From: Bacteroidota bacterium
Lineage (GTDB): Bacteria > Bacteroidota > Ignavibacteria > Ignavibacteriales > SURF-24
Assembly: GCA_030706145.1 (NCBI GenBank)
Contig: JAUZPB010000001.1
Location: 1-64,000, forward strand
Direction of reading: 5' to 3'
DNA: 64,000 bases
A program made the position numbers and the translations under genes. Position 1 is the first letter of the stretch; every line of letters begins with the position of its first letter. Below the pieces are notes generated by a model. It was given only the letters and a program-made list of their open reading frames with translations, was not told the origin of the DNA and did no database searches. Below are positions 1,526 to 63,287 of this stretch, one piece after another.

Positions 1526-2011
1526 TTATCCTTTAAGCTGAGAGAGATAATTCTCTAGCGTGTTAATTAATTCAACCTGAGCCATATTAATTTTTTGTTT
1601 TGCTAATGAAGTCTGCATAAATTCAGCCTTATCTACTTCGGGAAAACTTTGTTGTCTGCCCGAATTAGGCGGCCATTGCACGGTAAAGAAGCTTTTTGAA
1701 TTATCAAGCACGATATCTGATTCATATTTATGAGCCCAGGCATGCACTGTTTTGCCTCCCTTTTGCCTGACAGATCCAAGAGGAACAAATTCCTCATCCT
1801 TTTTTAGTATAAGACCAGTTTCCTCCTGAAGCTCGCGAATTGCACAGCTAAGATAATCCTCATCTTTGTCAATCTCCCCCTTTGGGATGCTCCAGAAGCC
1901 AATATCCTTTTTAGAAAAAAAAGGTCCACCAGGATGAACAAGGAATAACTCTAAAGTTCCGTTTTTAATTCTGTATAATAGAATACCTGCACTAATCCTT
2001 TGCTGAGCCAT
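1526..2011 (-). CDS. NUDIX hydrolase
   Basis: The 161-residue protein contains a full Nudix box: Gly45, Glu51, Arg59-Glu60, Glu63-Glu64 and Gly66 fit GX5EX7REUXEEXGU. This is the metal and pyrophosphate site that cleaves nucleoside diphosphates linked to another moiety. The N-terminal style (QRISAGILLYR, then FLVHPGGPFF and a WSIPKGE segment before the box) resembles small bacterial nudix proteins that sanitise or recycle nucleotides; the substrate cannot be read from sequence. It sits between recN and hemW with 2- and 5-base gaps, so the three are almost certainly co-transcribed. The link to recN would suit a nucleotide-pool or repair role, but this is inference. Confidence 0.88.
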   Translation of the reverse strand: MAQQRISAGILLYRIKNGTLELFLVHPGGPFFSKKDIGFWSIPKGEIDKDEDYLSCAIRELQEETGLILKKDEEFVPLGSVRQKGGKTVHAWAHKYESDIVLDNSKSFFTVQWPPNSGRQQSFPEVDKAEFMQTSLAKQKINMAQVELINTLENYLSQLKG

Positions 2012-2013
2012 TT

Positions 2014-3723
2014 TTATTTACCAATTCCCATTAGTTCTCTAGCACCTTTAAGACTTGCCTCTGTAACTTCCTCGCCGCTCATTAGCTTAGCAACTTCGCG
2101 GACCCTATCCTCATTATTTAATTTCCGAATAGAGCTTACTACTCTATCTGCACGCAAAGATTTTGCAACCACATAATGCTGATCGGCAAGTCCGGCAATC
2201 TGAGGCAGGTGTGTAATAGAGATGATCTGGTGAAAGCCGGCTAAGCTTTTCAAGGTTTGTCCAACCTTTTGTGCAATACGGCCACTAACACCTGTATCAA
2301 TCTCATCAAAAATCAAAAGAGGCAGTTTATCATTTTTGGCCAGAATTGTCTTTAATGCAAGCATAACCCTTGAAATTTCACCACCCGAGGCAACTTTGAC
2401 AAGAGGTTTAGGATCTTCACCCTTGTTTGTAGAAATGAAGAACTCAACACAATCGTATCCATTGTGGTCAAACCTATATGCTTTATTCTCAACGACAATA
2501 TGTGACTCTGACTTATTGTCTGCCTGCAGATGAGTTATTCTTACCTCAAAGACTGCATCAGAAATTCCAAGATAGCTAAGAGCACTAGCAACTTCTCTTT
2601 GAACAGTAAGTGCTATTTGTTCTCTTTTCTTTGATATTTTCAGAGCCATAGAACCGCATTTAGTTCTAGCTAATTCAATTTCTTGTTCAAGTTTGTGGAT
2701 ACTATCTTCAAAATTTTCAGCAAGGTCAAATTCTTCGCCTATTTTCTGTCTGTATTGAAGGACTAAGTCGAGTGAACCGCCATACTTTTTTTTCAGCATT
2801 ATAATGGCACCAATTCTATTTCGAATCTCCTCAAGGCGCTCGGGTTCAAGGTCAATCTTATTGCTATAGCTTCTAATAAACTCGGCCATATCGTTGATAA
2901 GAGCAAGTGCACTATGGCATTCTCCCTCGACATCGAGAAAAGATTTGTCTATTTTCGAAAGGTCATGAAGTTCATTTCTAATACTAACTAGCATATCATA
3001 GACAGCGTTTTCAGAATCATAGAGATTCTGATAGATACCGTTTGTAGATTCAAGGAGTTTCTCGGCATTTTCCAGAATAATTAGTTCCTGATTGAGTTTT
3101 TCGTCTTCACCTTGCTCTGGTGAAACACCATCAATCTCTCTTATTTGAAATGAATAAAGTTCTTTTTTCTCCTTTAGTATCTGTTCTTTTTGTCTAAGAG
3201 AGCTAAGTTGGTGAATCAAGGAATTTAATTTATGATACTCATTTCTATAGTCCTCTATTACCCCATCAAGGTTTCCAAATTCATCTAGCATCTCAATATG
3301 AGTTTCAGTTCTAAGGAGGGATTGATGTTCATGTTGTCCATGAAGATCGACAAGAAGATTACCGACTTCTTTTATCTGTGCTAATGAAACTGGTGTATCA
3401 TTAAGAAAGCATCTGTTAGATCCCTTCAGAGAAATCTCACGTCTCATAATAAGTTCGGGTTGATAATCTATTTCAGCAGCTTTTAGAGCCGACTTGACCT
3501 TCGTATTGTTTTCGACGTCAAAGATTCCTTCAATAACGGATTTCTGAGCACCTTTTCTTACTACCTCAACAGATGCCCTTTCGCCCAGAATAAGCCCCAT
3601 AGCATCTATTAATATAGATTTACCAGCACCTGTCTCACCGGTAATGATATTCAAGCCTTTATCGAATTCGACAAAGACCTGTTCAATCAGTGCATAATCC
3701 TTAATTTGGAGTGATTTTAGCAT
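2014..3723 (-). CDS. recN: DNA repair ATPase RecN
   Basis: This is an SMC-like protein of 569 residues, the usual RecN length. Walker A (GETGAGKS) is at residues 29-36, and 'LHGQHEH' follows near residue 130. The centre is a Glu/Lys/Leu-rich coiled coil. The C-terminal half has the ABC signature (ASGGEISRVMLALKTI) and Walker B (PLLIFDEIDTGVSG), then a 'SITHLPQIAGLADQHY' segment typical of RecN. RecN acts on double-strand breaks during recombinational repair. It is the first gene of the recN-nudix-hemW cluster. No LexA-like operator is evident upstream. Assignment is firm from motif order. Confidence 0.95.
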   Translation of the reverse strand: MLKSLQIKDYALIEQVFVEFDKGLNIITGETGAGKSILIDAMGLILGERASVEVVRKGAQKSVIEGIFDVENNTKVKSALKAAEIDYQPELIMRREISLKGSNRCFLNDTPVSLAQIKEVGNLLVDLHGQHEHQSLLRTETHIEMLDEFGNLDGVIEDYRNEYHKLNSLIHQLSSLRQKEQILKEKKELYSFQIREIDGVSPEQGEDEKLNQELIILENAEKLLESTNGIYQNLYDSENAVYDMLVSIRNELHDLSKIDKSFLDVEGECHSALALINDMAEFIRSYSNKIDLEPERLEEIRNRIGAIIMLKKKYGGSLDLVLQYRQKIGEEFDLAENFEDSIHKLEQEIELARTKCGSMALKISKKREQIALTVQREVASALSYLGISDAVFEVRITHLQADNKSESHIVVENKAYRFDHNGYDCVEFFISTNKGEDPKPLVKVASGGEISRVMLALKTILAKNDKLPLLIFDEIDTGVSGRIAQKVGQTLKSLAGFHQIISITHLPQIAGLADQHYVVAKSLRADRVVSSIRKLNNEDRVREVAKLMSGEEVTEASLKGARELMGIGK

Positions 3724-3760
3724 AATCCTTCGAAAATTATTTTCAGTAATTTACGGGAAA

Positions 3761-3793
3761 TTGAAGGAATTTGAAAGGAATTAATTCCTTCAA
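3761..3793. repeat. Perfect inverted repeat between ispD and recN
   Basis: An 11-base arm TTGAAGGAATT (3761-3771) is matched perfectly by AATTCCTTCAA (3783-3793) across an 11-base spacer. No clear T-run follows on either strand. It lies downstream of the ispD terminator and upstream of recN on the minus strand, so it could be an operator or leader hairpin for recN. Confidence 0.5.
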
Positions 3794-3892
3794 AAAGCAA
3801 AATAAATCAGGAGCAAATAAAATTAATTTGATATAAAGGCATATAGAGTTGGTTTGGAGACGGCTGATATTTTTAGCAGTATTATGACATAG

Positions 3893-3929
3893 GAAAAAAA
3901 GAATGCAGGGTCTTTAAAAAACCCCGCAT
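3893..3929 (-). terminator. Rho-independent terminator of ispD
   Basis: On the minus strand ATGCGGGGT (3929-3921) pairs with ACCCTGCAT (3911-3903) with one G-T wobble, and a T-rich run follows (rc of 3893-3902). The ispD stop codon lies in the loop. This is a standard intrinsic terminator that closes the queA-ispD unit. Confidence 0.75.
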
Positions 3930-4594
3930 AACTTTTCGAAAATTTCAAGATCCGGTTTTGTTGTTATCTTAAAATTCATGATAGATCCTTCAACAAGTTT
4001 AATCTCGTATCCTGCCCTTTTAACAAGCATTGATTCGTCAGTTCCGTAGAATCCTTCTTTGAATGCCAGATCCATTGACTCTTTTAGAATATTAAATCTA
4101 AAGATCTGAGGTGTCTGTGCATAGAATACTTTAGTTCTATCCAGATATGATTCAATATTATTCTGACCGACAACGAGTGTATCACGTGCATGAATACAGA
4201 CAAGAGCACTACCAAAGTTTTCTGCGGTCTCAAAAGCTTTAAGCAGAATATCCTGACTTAAAAGAGGTCTAGCGGCGTCATGGACAGCAACAAGATCATC
4301 ATTTTCAGCTGAAATAGCCTGAATGGCATTAAAGACAGAATCCTGTCTTTGTTTACCCCCTTCAACAATTTTCTTTAATTTGTCAAATCCATACTTGTCA
4401 GCTATTTTATATATTAAATCAAAGTACTCACTTTGTGCAGAGACAACAATTTCATCAATAAGATCACATTTTTGAAATACCTCAATTGAATAAGCAAGTA
4501 TTTCTTTATCTTTAACCTTATGATATTGCTTCGGCAAAGCCCCGTCACATCTTATACCGGATCCACCGGCTGGTATTACAACAATTCGTCTCAT
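3914..4594 (-). CDS. ispD: 2-C-methyl-D-erythritol 4-phosphate cytidylyltransferase (IspD)
   Basis: IspD joins CTP and MEP to give CDP-ME in the non-mevalonate isoprenoid pathway. The 226-residue protein has the N-terminal nucleotide-binding loop VIPAGGSGIR with LPKQY following, the conserved VHDAARPL segment near residue 105, and a late FKITTKPDLEIFE segment, all in family order and at family length. The first loop reads PAGGSGIRCDGALPKQY, slightly unlike the common AAGxGxRM form. It lies 12 bases downstream of queA and is probably co-transcribed with it; its stop is embedded in an intrinsic terminator. Confidence 0.93.
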   Translation of the reverse strand: MRRIVVIPAGGSGIRCDGALPKQYHKVKDKEILAYSIEVFQKCDLIDEIVVSAQSEYFDLIYKIADKYGFDKLKKIVEGGKQRQDSVFNAIQAISAENDDLVAVHDAARPLLSQDILLKAFETAENFGSALVCIHARDTLVVGQNNIESYLDRTKVFYAQTPQIFRFNILKESMDLAFKEGFYGTDESMLVKRAGYEIKLVEGSIMNFKITTKPDLEIFEKLCGVF

Positions 4595-4606
4595 AAAACT
4601 AAAGGA

Positions 4607-5641
4607 TCAAATGATCAACATTGCATCGCCATAGCTAAGGAAGCGATAATTTTCCTTCAATGCCTTCTTATATGCTTTCATTATCAGGTCATAGCCACAA
4701 AATGCAGCAGCCAGCATAATAAGAGTTGATTCAGGCATGTGCAAGTTTGTTATAAGCCTTTTAACAATCTTAAAATCGTAAGGTGGAAAGATGAACTTGT
4801 CTGTCCAACCACTGTTTGGTTTTACAAAGCCCTCAGCTGTTACGCTGCTTTCTAAAGCACGGGTTGAGCTAGTTCCTGTAACAAAAACCTTATGTTTTCC
4901 TTGAATTGCCTTATTAATAATCTCAGCAGAAGCTGGAGAAATTTCATAATACTCTGAATCCATCTTATGCTTTGTAAGATCCTCAACTTCAACAGGACGG
5001 AATGTTCCAAGTCCAATATGAAGAATGATAGGAGCAATTTTAATCCCTTTTTTCTTTATCTTTTCTAAAAGTTCTTCTGTAAAATGCAATCCTGCTGTAG
5101 GAGCAGCAACTGCACCGTCAACTTTAGCATAGACTGTCTGATAATTTTCCTTATCTTCAGGTACAGGGTCTCTTTTAATATAAGGCGGTAGCGGAGTCTC
5201 CCCAATTTTTTCAACAGCCTTAAAAATATTACCTGGCTGATTGAAGCGCACTGTTCTGCCCCTCGAGGTAGTATTATCAATCACTTCGCACCAGAGTTTA
5301 TCATTAAAATATATCCTATTTCCAATTCTAACCTTTCTAGCCGGATCAACAATAACATCCCAAATACATTCCTCTTTATTAAGTTCTCTTAACAAAAAGA
5401 CTTCAATTTTTGCATTTGTTCTTTCTTTTTTACCATATAGTCTGGCCTGGATTACTTTTGTCTCATTTACTACCAGGACATCGCCCTTTTCCATATAGTC
5501 AATAACATCACTAAAAACCTTTGTCTCGATCGATTGAGTTTCTCTATTTATGACCATCAATTTCGCCTGGTCTCTTGGTTCAACAGGGAATTTTGCAATC
5601 TGAGTCTTAGGTAAATTATATTTAAAATCCGATAGTTTCAT
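4607..5641 (-). CDS. queA: S-adenosylmethionine:tRNA ribosyltransferase-isomerase (QueA)
   Basis: QueA transfers and isomerises the ribosyl group of SAM onto 7-aminomethyl-7-deazaguanine in tRNA to form epoxyqueuosine. The 344-residue protein opens with MKLSDFKYNLPKTQIAKFP and contains VVNETKVIQARL, TPLPPYIKR, AAPTAGLHFT, HIGLGTFRPV and a C-terminal GDAMLII. These are all characteristic QueA segments at normal length. A TTCTCC/GGAGAA motif sits just upstream of the ATG as a ribosome-binding site. It leads the queA-ispD transcription unit. Confidence 0.96.
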   Translation of the reverse strand: MKLSDFKYNLPKTQIAKFPVEPRDQAKLMVINRETQSIETKVFSDVIDYMEKGDVLVVNETKVIQARLYGKKERTNAKIEVFLLRELNKEECIWDVIVDPARKVRIGNRIYFNDKLWCEVIDNTTSRGRTVRFNQPGNIFKAVEKIGETPLPPYIKRDPVPEDKENYQTVYAKVDGAVAAPTAGLHFTEELLEKIKKKGIKIAPIILHIGLGTFRPVEVEDLTKHKMDSEYYEISPASAEIINKAIQGKHKVFVTGTSSTRALESSVTAEGFVKPNSGWTDKFIFPPYDFKIVKRLITNLHMPESTLIMLAAAFCGYDLIMKAYKKALKENYRFLSYGDAMLII

Positions 5642-5678
5642 ATTTTCTCCTTACTATCTCAATTAAAATCAATTTAAT

Positions 5679-5706
5679 AGAGCAGTAAGTTACAGCTTAC
5701 TGCTCT
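5679..5706 (-). terminator. Hairpin terminator after the PPDK gene
   Basis: A perfect 11-bp stem, AGAGCAGTAAG (5679-5689) with CTTACTGCTCT (5696-5706), has a 6-base loop and lies 12 bases past the PPDK stop. On the minus strand it is followed by an AT-rich stretch rather than a pure T-run. Termination of PPDK transcription is the likely role. Confidence 0.65.
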
Positions 5707-5717
5707 AAGAGGTATAT

Positions 5718-8700
5718 TTATTTCTTTTTGTCAGCTTTTACAGCTTTTGTTGTTTTCCCTGCTTTTATAACAGATTTAGTAGCTTTTTTTGAAACCGGAG
5801 CAGCCTTTTTAGCGACAATTGCTTTTTTAGGAGCTACAGCTTTCTTTGCTGCTACAGCTTTTTTAGGAGCGGCAGCTTTTTTAGGAGCAGCAGCTTTCTT
5901 AGGAGCAGCAGCTTTCTTAGGAGCAGCTGCCTTTTTAGCAACAGTTACTTTCTTTGGAGCTACAGCCTTTTTTGTTGTAGTTGCAGCTTTTTTAGCAACA
6001 GTAGTCTTCTTAGCAGCAGTTGTTGCCTTTTTTGCTGCTACTGGAGCAGCTGCCTTTTTTGCGACAATTGCTTTCTTTGGAGCTACGGCTTTCTTTGCAG
6101 CAACAACTTTCTTTGGAGCTGCAGCTTTCTTAGGAGCAGCTGTCTTTTTAGCGACAGTTGCTTTCTTTGGAGCAGCCTTAGTTACGGCAACCTTCTTTGC
6201 AGCTGGGACGCTCTTCGAAGCAGTTTTTTTAGCAGGTTTTGCAGCTACTTTTTTTGCAGCTACTTTTTTAACACTTACTTTTTTAACAGTTACTTTTTTA
6301 GGAGCAACTTTAGCTTTACCATTTTTACGTGCATTACCATTTTTTGAAGCAGAAACTGTTTTAGCAGATTTCTTTGCTTCAGCATTAGCAATGTTTTCTT
6401 TTATGACGGCTCTTGCAGCAGCAAGTCTAGCAATTGGAACTCTGAATGGTGAACAGCTTACATAGTTCAGATTTGCCCTATGGCAGAACTCAACTGAAGC
6501 AGGTTCTCCACCGTGTTCGCCGCAGATACCGACTTTTAATTCAGGTCTAACAGATCTACCCTTCTGTGTACCGATTTCAACTAACTGACCAACGCCATCA
6601 ACATCAATTGAAACAAATGGATCTACAGGAAGGATTTCTCTTTCAACGTATAGAGGCAAGAATTTGCCAGCATCGTCTCTTGAAAGGCCGAATGTAGTTT
6701 GTGTAAGGTCATTGGTACCGAAACTAAAGAATTCAGCTACTTGAGCGATTTTATCAGCTGTAAGAGCAGCCCTGGGCAATTCGATCATTGTACCAACCAT
6801 GTAATTAACCTTAACGGCTTTTTCTTTCATTACTTCTGCAGCAACTTTTCTTACAATAGATTCCTGAAGCTTCAATTCTTCAATTGTACTTACAAGAGGG
6901 ATCATAATCTCAGGTTTAACTTTGATTTTCTTCTTAGCAACTTCGCAAGCAGCTTCAAAGATTGCTCTAGCCTGCATTTCAGTAATTTCAGGATAGCTAA
7001 TACCCAAGCGGCAGCCTCTGAAACCGAGCATTGGATTGAATTCTTTGAGAGATTCAATTTTTTCTCTAACTTTTTCAACTGAAATATTGAGGCTTTCAGC
7101 AACTTCTCTTGTCTCAGCGTCTTCATGAGGTAAGAACTCATGCAATGGAGGATCGAGAGTTCTTATTGTTACAGGTTTGCCTTCCATTGTTTCAAAAAGT
7201 CCGACGAAGTCAGCTTTCTGATATGGCAGAAGTTTTGCCAAAGCTGCTCTTCTTTCTTCGAGAGTATCGGCAAGAATCATTTCTCTTACTGCAAGGATTC
7301 TGTTTTCACCGAAGAACATATGTTCTGTGCGGCACAGGCCAATACCTTCGGCACCGAAGGCAACTGCATTCTGAGCCTGATCGGGCTGATCGGCATTTGT
7401 TCTAATACCCAAACGGCGCATTTGATCTGCCCATTTCATAAGATCATTATAGGTCTGGAAGATCTTTGATTCTTTAGGTTGCATTGTCTTAGTAATCAAT
7501 ACCTGAATAACCTCAGAAGGTTTTGTTTCAAGTTTACCAAGCAATACTTCGCCTGTTGAACCATCAATTGAGATATACTCACCTCTGTTAACTACTATAT
7601 CGTCTTTACCGGCAACTCTTATTGTACCTTCGACATAGTTAATATTCAAGGTACCACATCCAGCTACGCAAACCTTGCCCATCTGGCGTGCAACAAGAGC
7701 TGCATGAGATGTCATACCGCCTCTTGCAGTTAAGATACCTACGGCAGCATTCATACCTTTAATATCTTCCGGAGAAGTTTCAATTCTAACGAGAATTACT
7801 TTTTCTCCCTTAGCTGCTTCTTCTTCAGCTTCTTCGGCACTGAAGACAACCTTACCAGAAGCTGCGCCAGGACCAGCATTTAAGCCTTTTGCCAAGAGCT
7901 TACCTTCATCGACTGCTTTTTTCTTTTCCTTAGTATCGAATATAGGGCGAAGGAGCTGATTGAGCTGTTCAGGGTCAATCCTCATGAGTGCTTCTTCCTT
8001 TGTGATAAGTTTTTCTCTTACCATATCAACTGCTATTTTAACAGCTGCAAAGCCGGTTCTTTTACCAACGCGGCACTGAAGCATAAAGAGTTTGCCCTGC
8101 TGAATAGTGAATTCTACGTCAAGCATATCTTTATAATGCTTTTCAAGTTTCTTTCTTATATCATCGAGTTGTTTGTATATCTTAGGACTGTCCTTCTTTA
8201 AGTCAGCAATTGGAAGAGGAGTACGGACCCCGGCGACGACATCTTCACCTTGAGCATTAAAGAGGTATTCTCCATAGAATACATTTTCACCACTTGCAGC
8301 ATCTCTTGTAAATGCAACACCAGTACCTGAATCTTCGCCCATATTTCCAAATACCATTGTCTGGACGTTAACTGCAGTACCCCAATCAGCTGGGATATCA
8401 TTAAGTTTTCTATAAACTATTGCCCTGTCGTTCATCCATGAGCCAAATACAGCTCCGATTGCACCCCAAAGTTGTTCCATTGGATTATCAGGGAATTTCT
8501 TTCCAGTCTTATTAGCAATTTCTGCTTTGAATTCCTGAACAAGTTCTTTCAAGTGATCTGCTGTAAGGTCTGTATCTTTTTCGATACCGTTATCATGTTT
8601 CTTTTTATCAATTATAATTTCAAAAGGATCGATCTCATGTTTATCAACTGGTTTTAATCCTAAAACGACATCACCATACATCTGTACAAATCTTCTATAA

Positions 8701-9119
8701 GAGTCATAAACAAAGCGAGGGTTGTTTGTCTTAGCAATCATACCTTCGACAGTTGTATCATTCAAGCCTAAGTTTAAGATCGTATCCATCATACCAGGCA
8801 TAGAAGCTCTTGCGCCGCTTCTGACTGATACAAGCAGAGGATTTTTCGGATCACCGAATTTTGCACCCATTTCTCTTTCAACTTTTTTCAGTGCATCGAG
8901 TACCTGCTTTTCTAACTCTTTCGGATATTTCTTCTTATTGTCATAATAGTAAGTACATACTTCTGTAGTAATTGTAAACCCAGCAGGAACAGGCAGTCCG
9001 ATATTGACCATCTCAGCAAGGTTTGCACCTTTACCGCCGAGGAGGTTCTTCATATCTGCTTTTCCTTCGGCTTTAGGAGCACCGAAGAAATAAACATATT
9101 TTGGATTTTTTGGGGCCAT
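5718..9119 (-). CDS. ppdK: Pyruvate, phosphate dikinase with a histone H1-like C-terminal tail
   Basis: PPDK interconverts pyruvate, ATP and Pi with PEP, AMP and PPi. The core (residues 1 to about 910) is complete: N-terminal ATP-grasp domain ([10 protein letters not shown] near residue 28; VSVRSGA), swivelling domain with the phosphohistidine ([15 protein letters not shown], His472), and PEP/pyruvate barrel ([22 protein letters not shown], catalytic Cys866 in [11 protein letters not shown]). Normal PPDKs end here at about 880-910 residues. This one continues in frame for about 220 residues (roughly 914-1133, DNA 5718-6382) of almost pure Lys, Ala, Pro, Val and Thr with repeated AAPKKA and VAKKA units. 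The tail resembles histone H1 or bacterial H1-like proteins and is strongly basic. No stop or start separates it from the enzyme. The tail's role is unknown; binding to nucleic acid, polyphosphate or ribosomes are options. Spacing from lpxK suggests an independent promoter. Confidence 0.95.
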
Positions 9120-59419: not shown

Positions 59420-61030
59420 ATGATCCCAAAGGATAGAGTTATCGACCAATTAAATGAATTAGGGTTGAAAAACTTAAATGATGCCTTTTATAATCTTTCT
59501 ACAGGTCAGCTGTATGAAAGAGCTATTTACAGACGTGAAGGCGTTCTATCTCATTATGGACCAATCGTAGTCCGTACCGGTCAGCATACAGGAAGAAGTC
59601 CTAACGATAAGTTCATCGTAAAGGAAGCAACTAGTGAGAAATTTGTAAATTGGGGAAAGATCAACACTTCTATTGATGAAAAGAAGTTTGATCAGATCTT
59701 TGAAAAGATGAAGATCTACATTCAGAACAAAGATGTATTTGTTCAGGATTGTTATGCAGGAGCAGATCCTCAGTATAAATTAAGACTGAGAGTAATAACT
59801 GAAACTGCATGGCACAATGTTTTTGCCCGTAATTTATTTAGACGCATTGCCAGCAAGGAAGAACTTGCAAAACATGTTCCTGATTTCACAATTATTGACA
59901 TGCCTAATTTCCATGCAAATCCAGCAACAGATGGAACAAATTCAGAAGTATTTGTTATCATCAACTTCGCAAAGAAGCTGGTATTAATTGGTGGAACACA
60001 TTACGCAGGAGAAATAAAGAAATCAGCTTTCACAGTTCTGAACTACTTATTACCTCTAAAGGGTGTAATGTCAATGCATTGCTCTGCAAATATTGGTAAA
60101 GAAGATGATTCAGCTGTATTATTCGGATTATCAGGTACAGGAAAGACAACTCTTTCTGCTGATCCAAAACGTAGACTCATAGGTGATGATGAGCACGGAT
60201 GGAGTGATAATGGAATATTCAACTATGAAGGTGGTTGCTACGCAAAGGTTATCAGATTATCAGAAGAAGCTGAACCAGATATCTTCAAAACAACACGTAC
60301 GTTCGGAACAGTATTAGAAAATGTTAAGATTGATGCTGATACACGTTTACTCGATTTAGATGATGATACTTTGACAGAAAATACACGTGCTGCTTATCCT
60401 ATAACATTCATTGAGAATATTGAGCCAACTGGTCAGGGTGGACACCCACGCAATATCATCATGCTTACAGCAGATGCATTTGGAGTACTTCCTCCTGTTG
60501 CAAAATTAACAAACCAGCAGGCAATGTATCACTTCCTCTCTGGCTATACAGCAAAGGTTGCAGGTACAGAGAAAGGCATTACCGAACCAAAGGCTACATT
60601 CAGCACATGCTTCGGTGCTCCTTTCATGGTTCTTAATCCATCAGTCTATGCTGATCTTCTTGGTAAAAAGATCAAAGAGCACAATGTTAATTGCTGGTTG
60701 CTCAACACAGGCTGGACAGGCGGACCATACGGTGTTGGAAAACGTATGAAGATAGCATATACACGTGCTATGTTGGATGCAATCTTAAGTGGTGAGTTAG
60801 CAAAGGTTGAGACAAAAGAAGATCCATATTTTGGTCTTAATGTCCCAGTATCATGCCCTAACGTTCCACAGGAAGTTTTAGATCCAAGAAATACATGGCA
60901 GAGCAAAGAAGAATACGATAAGACTGCAGTAAAATTAGCTAATATGTTCCATGAGAACTTCAAACAGTTCGAAAAGAATGTTGAAGCTGACGTTATTAAT
61001 GCAGGTCCAAAAGCTCTGACAAATGCATAA
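59420..61030 (+). CDS. pckA: ATP-type phosphoenolpyruvate carboxykinase
   Basis: PEPCK turns oxaloacetate and ATP into PEP, CO2 and ADP. The 536-residue protein has VVRTGQHTGRSPNDKF, the GGTHYAGEIKKSAFTVLNYLLP segment, the kinase P-loop LFGLSGTGKTTLSAD followed by IGDDEHGW, RTFGTVLENV and WLLNTGWTGGPYGVGKRM. All mark the ATP-dependent family at normal length. With FBPase and PPDK it completes key gluconeogenic nodes. It is monocistronic with a strong terminator. Confidence 0.97.
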   Translation: MIPKDRVIDQLNELGLKNLNDAFYNLSTGQLYERAIYRREGVLSHYGPIVVRTGQHTGRSPNDKFIVKEATSEKFVNWGKINTSIDEKKFDQIFEKMKIYIQNKDVFVQDCYAGADPQYKLRLRVITETAWHNVFARNLFRRIASKEELAKHVPDFTIIDMPNFHANPATDGTNSEVFVIINFAKKLVLIGGTHYAGEIKKSAFTVLNYLLPLKGVMSMHCSANIGKEDDSAVLFGLSGTGKTTLSADPKRRLIGDDEHGWSDNGIFNYEGGCYAKVIRLSEEAEPDIFKTTRTFGTVLENVKIDADTRLLDLDDDTLTENTRAAYPITFIENIEPTGQGGHPRNIIMLTADAFGVLPPVAKLTNQQAMYHFLSGYTAKVAGTEKGITEPKATFSTCFGAPFMVLNPSVYADLLGKKIKEHNVNCWLLNTGWTGGPYGVGKRMKIAYTRAMLDAILSGELAKVETKEDPYFGLNVPVSCPNVPQEVLDPRNTWQSKEEYDKTAVKLANMFHENFKQFEKNVEADVINAGPKALTNA

Positions 61031-61138: not shown

Positions 61139-61210
61139 CCCCTTCTTACTCTTTCCTTACTTGCTTAATTTTCAACTTACATTTTTATACTTTACGAAAA
61201 GCCAGATCTC

Positions 61211-61256
61211 ACAAAGCTTAAGTACACACAAAGCTTAAGTACACACAAAGCTTAAG
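61211..61256. repeat. Short tandem repeat, 17-bp unit
   Basis: ACAAAGCTTAAGTACAC occurs at 61211-61227 and 61228-61244 exactly and is followed by a partial third copy (61245-61256). Each unit contains AAGCTT and CTTAAG palindromes. It lies between the pckA terminator and the promoter region of the ASKHA gene and could be a set of operator sites or a slipped-strand repeat. Confidence 0.75.
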
Positions 61257-61388: not shown

Positions 61389-63287
61389 GTGGAAAAAAAG
61401 GCTATGTCAGGTAAACATAGAGTGACATTTCTTCCTGAGAATAAGACAGGTTATTTCGAGGATAATACTTCCCTGCACAGTGCTGCTCTGAGTCTGGGGA
61501 TTGCGATCAATTCCACTTGTGGCGGAATTGGCAAGTGTGGCAAGTGCCGCATAGTTGAATTAAATTGCAATGAAAAAGAATTTTATGCTAAAGAGTTTTC
61601 TAAAGAGTTTTATACTAAGGAATTTGATATTAAAAAATTTAATACTGATGAATTATCAAATATCAGTCAAACCTGTAGTACTCAACTATTTCTTTCCTGT
61701 CAGCAAAAAATATCTAAAGACATGGTATGTTATATACCCGAAAGTTCCGTTACAAAAAATGAGCAAATAATGACAGATGGGAAAAGCGAAAATATTAAAC
61801 TTGAGCCAGACATAAAGAAAATATTCATAGAGGTTCCGCTTCCTCAGCTTGGAATAAAGTATTTTGATATTGATTCGGTAATTTCAGCACTAAATGAAAC
61901 AGGACTTAAGGTTTCAGCTTATTCATACAAAGCATCCACAAATATTTCACAGCTTTTAAGAGAGAGCAGTTACAAGGTAAGCTGCATAATTGAAGGCGAA
62001 GAGTTAATTGCAGTAGAAAGTGGTAATACTACAGACAGGTTTTATGGAATTGCAATCGACATAGGCACGACAACAATTGCAGCAAAACTCTTAAATTTGA
62101 ACAATGGTAAAACTGAGGCTATTACATCTGCCCTAAACAGTCAGCACATATATGGAGCAGATGTCATTTCGAGAGTAAATTTCATTATTGAAAATAAAGA
62201 TGGTCTTGAAAGGCTTCACGAGATCATAATAAATCAGATTAACCATCTAATTTGCATACTTTGCAATTTAGCCCAGATCGAACCCTTTGACATATATAAG
62301 ATCGTCATTGCAGGCAATACGATAATGCAGCATATAACGTTAAAGCTAGATCCAAGAAATCTTGCCTTCAGCCCATATACGCCTGTGATGCAAGGGCCAT
62401 TAAGTCTAGAAGCAAAATCATTAAAGATAGAACTTAATCCATCTGCAATATTATATTCGATTCCAAGCCTGGGAGGTTTTGTTGGAAGTGATATAACCTC
62501 AGTTTTAACTATACTAGATCTTGATGAAAGCAATACGCCAAAACTTGTCATAGATATTGGGACAAATGGTGAAGTTGTACTTGGTTCCAAAGAAAGAATA
62601 CTCTGCGCATCAGCTCCTGCCGGACCAGCTTGGGAAGGGGCTTGCATAACCTGCGGTATGCGTGCAAGCGAAGGAGCAATTGAAGCAGTATTGCTTAAAG
62701 AGGGTGATATTGAGTTTAAGACAATTGGAGATGTTGCACCCAAAGGCATTTGTGGCAGCGGAATAATAGACCTGATAACAAAACTACTTCATTGTGGAAT
62801 AGTAGACAATTGGGGAAGAATACTTTCATCTGAAGAGTTACCAATTAAGACCAGCAACAAACTTAAAAACCGCATAAAGAAAAGCAGTTGCAATCTTTAC
62901 GAAATTGATCTTATTGAGGGCAAGATAATTCTTTCTCAGCAAGATATACGAGAGATTCAACTTGCAAAGGCTGCAATTTCATCTACTATTGAAATTCTAA
63001 TGAAGGAGTTAAATATTGGTAAAAATGAAATCTCAGAGGTATATATTGCAGGAGCCTTTGGGAATCATTTGAATAGTGAAGATGCAATAGAACTTGGCCT
63101 TATTCCCAGGATCAGTCAAGAGAAAATTAACTTTATAGGTAATGCTGCTTTATCCGGAGCAGAGGCAGTACTATTATCTTCTGCAATAAGACAAAAAGCA
63201 GAACACCTATCAAAACTAATCGAATATGTTGAACTTTCAGGAAGAGAAGATTTTCAGGAGATCTTTATTAATTCGATGTTTTTTTAA
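61389..63287 (+). CDS. Ferredoxin-ASKHA corrinoid-activating ATPase (RamA/RACE type, DUF4445)
   Basis: The start is GTG 61389 with AAAGG 8 bases upstream; an in-frame ATG at 61404 is an alternative. The 632-residue protein has an N-terminal 2Fe-2S domain with Cys44, Cys50, Cys53 and Cys104. Between the third and fourth Cys lies a repetitive Lys-Glu-Phe run (about 62-90). A linker follows, then an ASKHA ATPase (about 215-620: GIAIDIGTTTIAAKLL, AGNTIMQH, LVIDIGTNGEVVLG, APAGPAWEGACI, GICGSGIIDLI, VYIAGAFGNHL). Proteins of this build reduce inactive Co(II) corrinoids to Co(I) in ATP-dependent fashion for methyltransferases, including MetH forms lacking their own activation domain. The next gene supports this. 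Confidence 0.9.
   Translation: MEKKAMSGKHRVTFLPENKTGYFEDNTSLHSAALSLGIAINSTCGGIGKCGKCRIVELNCNEKEFYAKEFSKEFYTKEFDIKKFNTDELSNISQTCSTQLFLSCQQKISKDMVCYIPESSVTKNEQIMTDGKSENIKLEPDIKKIFIEVPLPQLGIKYFDIDSVISALNETGLKVSAYSYKASTNISQLLRESSYKVSCIIEGEELIAVESGNTTDRFYGIAIDIGTTTIAAKLLNLNNGKTEAITSALNSQHIYGADVISRVNFIIENKDGLERLHEIIINQINHLICILCNLAQIEPFDIYKIVIAGNTIMQHITLKLDPRNLAFSPYTPVMQGPLSLEAKSLKIELNPSAILYSIPSLGGFVGSDITSVLTILDLDESNTPKLVIDIGTNGEVVLGSKERILCASAPAGPAWEGACITCGMRASEGAIEAVLLKEGDIEFKTIGDVAPKGICGSGIIDLITKLLHCGIVDNWGRILSSEELPIKTSNKLKNRIKKSSCNLYEIDLIEGKIILSQQDIREIQLAKAAISSTIEILMKELNIGKNEISEVYIAGAFGNHLNSEDAIELGLIPRISQEKINFIGNAALSGAEAVLLSSAIRQKAEHLSKLIEYVELSGREDFQEIFINSMFF

Follow-up and report, generated by a model that had tools for sequence, protein, structure and literature searches.

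The stretch of DNA analysed here (the window, 64,000 nucleotides) comes from a genome of 5.3 Mb in 345 contigs, 98% complete, and carries on its minus strand a gene for pyruvate, phosphate dikinase (PPDK) whose product continues into a long C-terminal tail (Table 1). The gene is a single frame of 1133 codons without an internal stop, and it is flanked on the same strand by lpxK- and queA-like genes, as named from their translations. Residues 7 to 906 matched the TIGR01828 equivalog model with 1356 bits (cut-off 843), as a whole-length PPDK does. All three Pfam domains of PPDK were found in the core by profile search. His472 and Cys866 are confirmed exactly, and the motifs around them line up with their counterparts in a solved PPDK. 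The core ends at about residue 902, with ARLAAA as its final motif. By sequence, the protein would thus be an otherwise ordinary and complete PPDK, in agreement with the preliminary description, which had recognised both catalytic residues. The six closest named PPDKs are 72-80% identical to it; of the MAGs that contain them, one is labelled Bacteroidetes, one Ignavibacteriaceae, two Melioribacteraceae and two Ignavibacteria, which suggests an ignavibacterial origin for the window.

Table 1. Features of the ppdk locus in the window.
Feature	Position	Strand	Basis
ppdk gene: pyruvate, phosphate dikinase with C-terminal tail, 1133 aa	5718..9119	minus	ORF, TIGR01828
PPDK conserved core, aa 1-902 (PPDK_N, mobile His domain, PEP-binding domain)	6414..9119	minus	profiles, solved-PPDK alignment, AlphaFold
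Phospho-His codon His472, motif GGMTSHAA	7704..7706	minus	motif, solved-PPDK alignment
Catalytic Cys866 codon, motif GICGEHGG	6522..6524	minus	motif, solved-PPDK alignment
K/A-rich tail, predicted disordered, aa 903-1133, net charge +72	5721..6413	minus	composition, AlphaFold
Duplicated 43-codon block, first copy, aa 982-1024	6048..6176	minus	self-comparison
Duplicated 43-codon block, second copy, aa 1065-1107	5799..5927	minus	self-comparison
Hairpin, 12-bp stem, 6-nt loop, 10 nt past the ppdk stop	5678..5707	minus	possible transcript end

The hairpin is absent from the calls of the terminator scan. Promoter- and terminator-like sites between 5400 and 9600 were within the range of shuffled sequences, and a Rfam search of the whole window at gathering scores returned zero matches. 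Elsewhere in the window, a perfect 17-bp tandem repeat of 2.8 copies (61210-61256) lies between ORFs of at least 150 aa that end at 61030 and start at 61389. The same genome also has a pyruvate-kinase-like gene, and the gluconeogenic role named in the preliminary description is therefore only one possibility for this PPDK. The corresponding PF00224 match (positions 21265-22203 of contig C112) recurs in the related genomes G001 and G002 and is absent from G003 and G004, two genomes of the window's family; the open frames that contain it have 328-329 aa, and room for the usual C-terminal domain is therefore missing.

The tail has 231 residues, including 73 K, 72 A, 28 V, 17 T, 15 P and 3 acidic ones, which corresponds to fractions of 0.32, 0.31 and 0.06 for K, A and P. 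A long Lys/Ala/Pro-rich tail had been described before, and this part stands; the 220 residues given for it become 231 when the boundary is set at residue 902. In a scan of 304 kb of the genome (4 kb counted twice), only three of 226 ORFs of at least 150 aa contained any 50-mer with at least 14 lysines, and the K/A/P/T/V/S content of these stretches was 100% in the tail versus 50% and 40% in the other two. The DNA pattern of the KK[AV]xxxKK[AV] type (period 6, A or V) has 18 matches genome-wide, 13 of them inside the tail. The composition of the tail is not chance within this genome. At the level of codon pairs, AAA AAA was found 10 times versus 14.0 expected (P = 0.015) and AAG AAA 11 times versus 6.6 (P = 0.04), both uncorrected for the four pairs tested; as a sign of translational selection, this bias is suggestive only. 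An antisense ORF of 245 aa, rich in Phe, Ala and Leu, runs over the tail on the plus strand (5728-6465) and is apparently a shadow of the Lys/Ala codons. The sole match to the tail in the window's genome apart from ppdk (E = 0.09) is the minus-strand frame at 1927-5265 of locus L105, a 1112-aa LysM-repeat protein with a K/E/D repeat region and, as read from its translation, the look of a lytic transglycosylase.

Neither the tail nor the 40 codons upstream of it contain a start-like codon (ATG, GTG or TTG), and the remaining two forward frames over the tail have 14 and 25 stops. A frameshift was rejected on the basis of these stops and of the uninterrupted ORF. A mis-joined H1-like gene was also rejected: the tail lacks a start codon, and the genome's Hc1 (PF07432) match is a separate 68-aa frame on another contig, so the tail is not that gene joined by mistake. 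Both origins are very unlikely. The same extremely low likelihood applies to any artefact of this kind, mis-assembly included; the fragmentation of the genome into 345 contigs speaks for it, but the same architecture in two other genomes, the basic tail at the same position across the order and the length of the longest exact repeat in the tail (29 bp, short for a read-length collapse) all speak against it. Relatives might have carried the tail as a separate gene, which had been put forward as a way to disprove the fusion; G001 and G002 instead have tails in frame with the core. The gene is therefore continuous from core to tail, and the tail is presumably translated in the cell.

AlphaFold2, run with a 26-row alignment, gave a mean pLDDT of 77 and a pTM of 0.74. 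Most ten-residue blocks of the core had pLDDT values of 78-97, except for a loop (293-298) below 50, whereas the tail stayed below 50 across residues 923-1133, with the last helix ending at 928 and no secondary structure beyond it. According to this model, the core is folded and the tail is intrinsically disordered. A disordered, K/A-rich segment with proline and little acid fits the composition of H1-type C-termini, and to this extent the earlier label of "histone H1-like" is appropriate. It does not extend to homology. Core and tail were searched separately, as had been suggested, and the tail alone matched zero Pfam families at E values up to 0.1, in contrast to the TIGR01828 match of the core; the motif typical of H1, [ST]PKK, occurs 0 times in the tail (APKK, 11 times), and the Hc1 match is the one on the other contig. 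KPAA repeats number 0 in the window's tail and 3 in that of locus L101 (genome G002). In the excerpted text of PMC12345225, a PASK motif is defined as 20 consecutive residues of which at least 75% are D, E, S or K, with a lysine among them; the maximum reached in the tail was 0.5.

PPDK length was also compared in relatives. Of 164 genomes of the order searched, 163 had a match, and among the matches listed 132 were full-length (spanning from query residue 8 or lower to 904 or higher, fragmentary matches being outside this count). Three of them, among the matches listed, have an open frame above 1000, namely the window's genome (1139), G001 (1041) and G002 (1035), and the other 129 lie at 913-967. 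In a phylum sample of 148 genomes, 127 of which had a match, the window's frame was the only one above 1000 among the matches listed. The long-frame PPDKs of the phylum that were read (L178-L181 and L184, with frames of 971-995; L182 and L183, with 966 and 962) extend only 4-16 aa past the core, and their extra length would be located upstream. The in-frame tails of G002 (L101) and G001 (L102) have 128 and 124 aa, and their cores are 88% and 87% identical to that of the window. Within the window's family, the tails of G003 and G004 have 27 and 34 aa; since the best PPDK of these two genomes is only 62-63% identical to the window's, it may belong to another PPDK lineage.

The tail is not an isolated oddity, and in this respect the preliminary description needs correction: a lysine-rich C-terminus is found on most of the order PPDKs in the sample. 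At least 25% lysine in the last 20 aa was found in 36 of 37 order PPDKs versus 5 of 107 neighbouring ORFs, PPDKs and neighbours being told apart by blastp assignment; this set excludes the window's own PPDK, has six members placed by label or identity, and includes at least two duplicate pairs with identical tails (L003/L106 and L005/L118), apparently one sequence from two collections. For the other PPDKs, mostly from other phyla with a few loci labelled Melioribacter, Melioribacteraceae, Bacteroidota or Kapabacteria, the figures were 19 of 72 versus 13 of 266 neighbouring ORFs. Twenty further order PPDKs, taken stepwise down the listing, had tails of 7-44 aa (median 20.5), and 17 of them were lysine-rich; the remaining three end 7, 10 and 9 aa past the core. 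Among order relatives picked mainly for longer frames, the longest tail had 63 aa (L186), G001 and G002 apart. Tails in related genomes therefore form a series of 7-63, 124/128 and 231 aa, and the window's tail, the longest among the PPDKs sampled, seems to be the extreme of a short lysine-rich C-terminus common to most of those sampled in the order. The other relatives read manage with short tails, and the role of the basic end therefore does not depend on 231 residues; likewise, the short tails of G003 and G004 and the three ends that are not lysine-rich indicate that the long tail is dispensable for PPDK function. Lysine-rich ends also occur outside the order (L027, L030, L031, L048, L057, L058, L079 and others); the MAGs concerned bear the labels Spirochaetes, Verrucomicrobia, Bacteroidales and Clostridia, as if such an end had been gained repeatedly at one spot.

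The tail DNA has an 18-bp (6-aa) periodicity, with TRF periods of 15, 18, 36 and 54 bp. Self-comparison revealed a 43-codon block present twice, the copies being offset by 83 codons and 83% identical in DNA (score 74 versus a maximum of 27 in 60 codon shuffles). The tail apparently grew by 18-bp repeats together with segmental duplication. The two copies differ by 15 synonymous and 5 nonsynonymous codons (dN 0.054, dS 0.85, dN/dS about 0.06); all five amino acid changes are among A, V, T and P, and 14 of 14 lysines are unchanged. Three further self-comparisons, which overlap and are not independent, gave dN of about 0.10 and dS of 0.80-0.95. Given that dN is far below dS and that every lysine of the block was kept, the composition of the tail looks selected. 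A neutral simulation, started from a perfect array and run until same-codon agreement equalled the observed 0.58 (about 250-300 mutations), produced 4-5 stops versus 0 in the tail, 13-15 acidic residues versus 3, and a K/A/P/V/T/S/I/G share of 0.76-0.78 versus 0.957. The simulation serves as supporting evidence only, since it assumes a perfect single-codon start and no later homogenisation. When the L101 tail was simulated from its own 12-bp unit the results went in the same direction, the absence of stops alone being non-significant (12.5-20% of runs at 100-150 mutations were stop-free).

In G001 and G002 the repeat unit is TAAK/AAVK (12 bp), unlike the KKAAAP of the window. Composition is nevertheless similar between the genera, with K at 0.32 and 0.30 and P at 0.06 and 0.05. 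The tails of G001 and G002 are exactly one 12-bp unit apart with zero base differences, which bears out the earlier expectation that the repeat expands and contracts. Alignment of the window and L101 tails against shuffles gave p values of 0.06 for the whole, 0.07 for the first 30 and 0.17 for the last 22 residues; none is significant at the 5% level, and the long tails may accordingly go back either to one inherited long tail or to separate expansion. Over 9 kb, G001 and G002 share about 85% identity, but a stretch of about 1 kb, in which the final part of the PPDK core, the tail and the 3' hairpin lie (reverse complement of about 5390-6350 of L101), is 100% identical apart from the 12-bp unit. 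This identity reflects either recent recombination or a shared assembly chimera, and the two tails are accordingly not independent evidence.

We favour, with a probability of about 0.5, the reading that the tail, as a disordered polycation, tethers the enzyme to a polyanion such as nucleic acid, the ribosome or polyphosphate. The argument is that a disordered polycation whose composition looks selected has analogues in the tails of AlgP, PhaF and TopA, and that tails of this kind are commonly used to bind polyanions nonspecifically. According to this model, the short lysine-rich C-terminus of order PPDKs would have been enlarged in this lineage by 18-bp slippage and segmental duplication, and the tails of the oligomeric enzyme would act jointly as a sequence-nonspecific electrostatic tether, keeping PPDK on nucleoid DNA, on RNA and ribosomes, or on polyphosphate; the H1-like KPAA tails of AlgP and PhaF are thought to do likewise. 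Binding to a polyanion and the choice among these candidates are thus our proposal, and so would be any effect on metabolism. Against the tether it must be said that selection on composition alone is no proof of it. Each of the 5 family genomes has a polyphosphate kinase (PF02503), which makes polyphosphate a possible ligand in so far as presence of the kinase goes. The excerpts of PMC12345225 report that in E. coli lysine-rich stretches other than PASK mediate the binding of YihI and RNase R to polyphosphate, and that for YihI acidic residues were required besides lysines; the window's tail, with no PASK motif and nearly no acidic residues, differs in this from what YihI needed. A bolder version is that an H1-like tail, whose length evolves by repeat turnover, anchors PPDK, a producer or consumer of pyrophosphate and PEP, to the nucleoid or to polyphosphate granules, with a weaker version across the order. 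We regard it as rather doubtful, but if true, it would link central carbon metabolism in space with the chromosome or with the phosphate store.

The basic tail might instead serve the enzyme itself, through solubility, colloidal repulsion or protection of an Ala/Leu-rich end against C-terminal proteolysis, the long form being a tolerated excess with no specific partner. This is possible, although we consider it unlikely: tails of 7-63 aa in the order relatives read (G001 and G002 apart), a core that ends in an ARLAAA-type sequence and a charge that is kept while length varies would all be expected from it, but many PPDKs of other lineages end 0-4 residues past residue 906 without a basic tail, and 231 residues are far beyond what shielding needs. 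Neutral slippage, in which a low-complexity end expanded in replication and was merely tolerated, seems improbable to us. The repeat periods of 18 and 12 bp, the one-unit difference between G001 and G002 and the fact that, among the matches listed, just 3 of the 132 full-length ones of the order have a long tail are what slippage would produce; a dN/dS of about 0.06 in the duplicated block with zero lysines lost, the lack of stops and the few acidic residues relative to the simulation, and the frequency of lysine-rich ends across the order are not. The substrates and products of PPDK are polyanions, and the tail could act locally on catalysis, as a cloud of counter-ions around the dikinase in which ATP, pyrophosphate or short polyphosphate is concentrated or sensed, or it could alter aggregation in response to them. 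We give this idea little credit, because at physiological salt polymers should outcompete small anions.

To our knowledge, lysine-rich disordered tails in bacteria are known mainly from proteins that handle DNA or RNA. In its excerpted text, PMC6821194 states that low-complexity regions are enriched in lysine when they belong to DNA-binding proteins, and it refers to previous studies of eukaryotic proteomes in which metabolic proteins were depleted of such regions. The excerpts of the open-access literature searched, to which subscription journals and preprints do not belong, describe no lysine-rich PPDK tail and no PPDK case among metabolic enzymes with such extensions, in line with the earlier statement that no described dikinase was known to carry one. 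A core metabolic enzyme with an apparently selected polycationic tail, and a graded natural series of such tails, offers a ready comparison to ask whether polyanions serve as anchors for bacterial enzymes and by what steps such tails lengthen.

With the PPDKs of TIGR01828, the protein shares the complete core, the catalytic His and Cys and the three Pfam domains, but it has about 230 extra basic residues, whereas full-length solved chains have 873-913 aa. Short K-rich tails of PPDKs from other bacteria (L027, L030 and L031) occupy the same position, are K/A-rich and often end in KK or KKK; they extend 38, 64 and 65 aa past core residue 906, the last being the longest of 80 PPDK loci compared, versus 227 in the window by the same counting. 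The tail differs from histone H1/Hc1 (PF07432) in giving no profile match (Pfam, E up to 0.1). The tail is similar in kind to those of AlgP and PhaF of Pseudomonas; in the excerpts of PMC9239181 and PMC3574117, these proteins have a long disordered C-terminal K/A/P repeat tail of H1-like composition. The first of these sources reports that the KPAA tail of AlgP binds DNA, that AlgP is found on polyphosphate granules and that this tail is required to space them; the second describes PhaF, a protein of PHA storage granules, as mostly disordered, with its C-terminal domain modelled as wrapping DNA while bound to the granules. In contrast to these systems, the unit is KKAAAP in the window (TAAK/AAVK in L101 and L102) rather than KPAA, the carrier is a metabolic enzyme and binding is predicted only. 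Actinobacterial TopA also bears a C-terminal lysine-repeat tail on an enzyme (PMC7398561, excerpts), but TopA acts on DNA and PPDK does not. Chlamydial Hc2, as excerpted in PMC2848022, has lysine-rich repeats whose length shifts by duplication or deletion of units; unlike PPDK, it is a free-standing DNA-binding protein with no enzyme core. The window's protein therefore joins a known enzyme to a known kind of tail in a combination that was not found described, and the order-wide pattern makes it testable.
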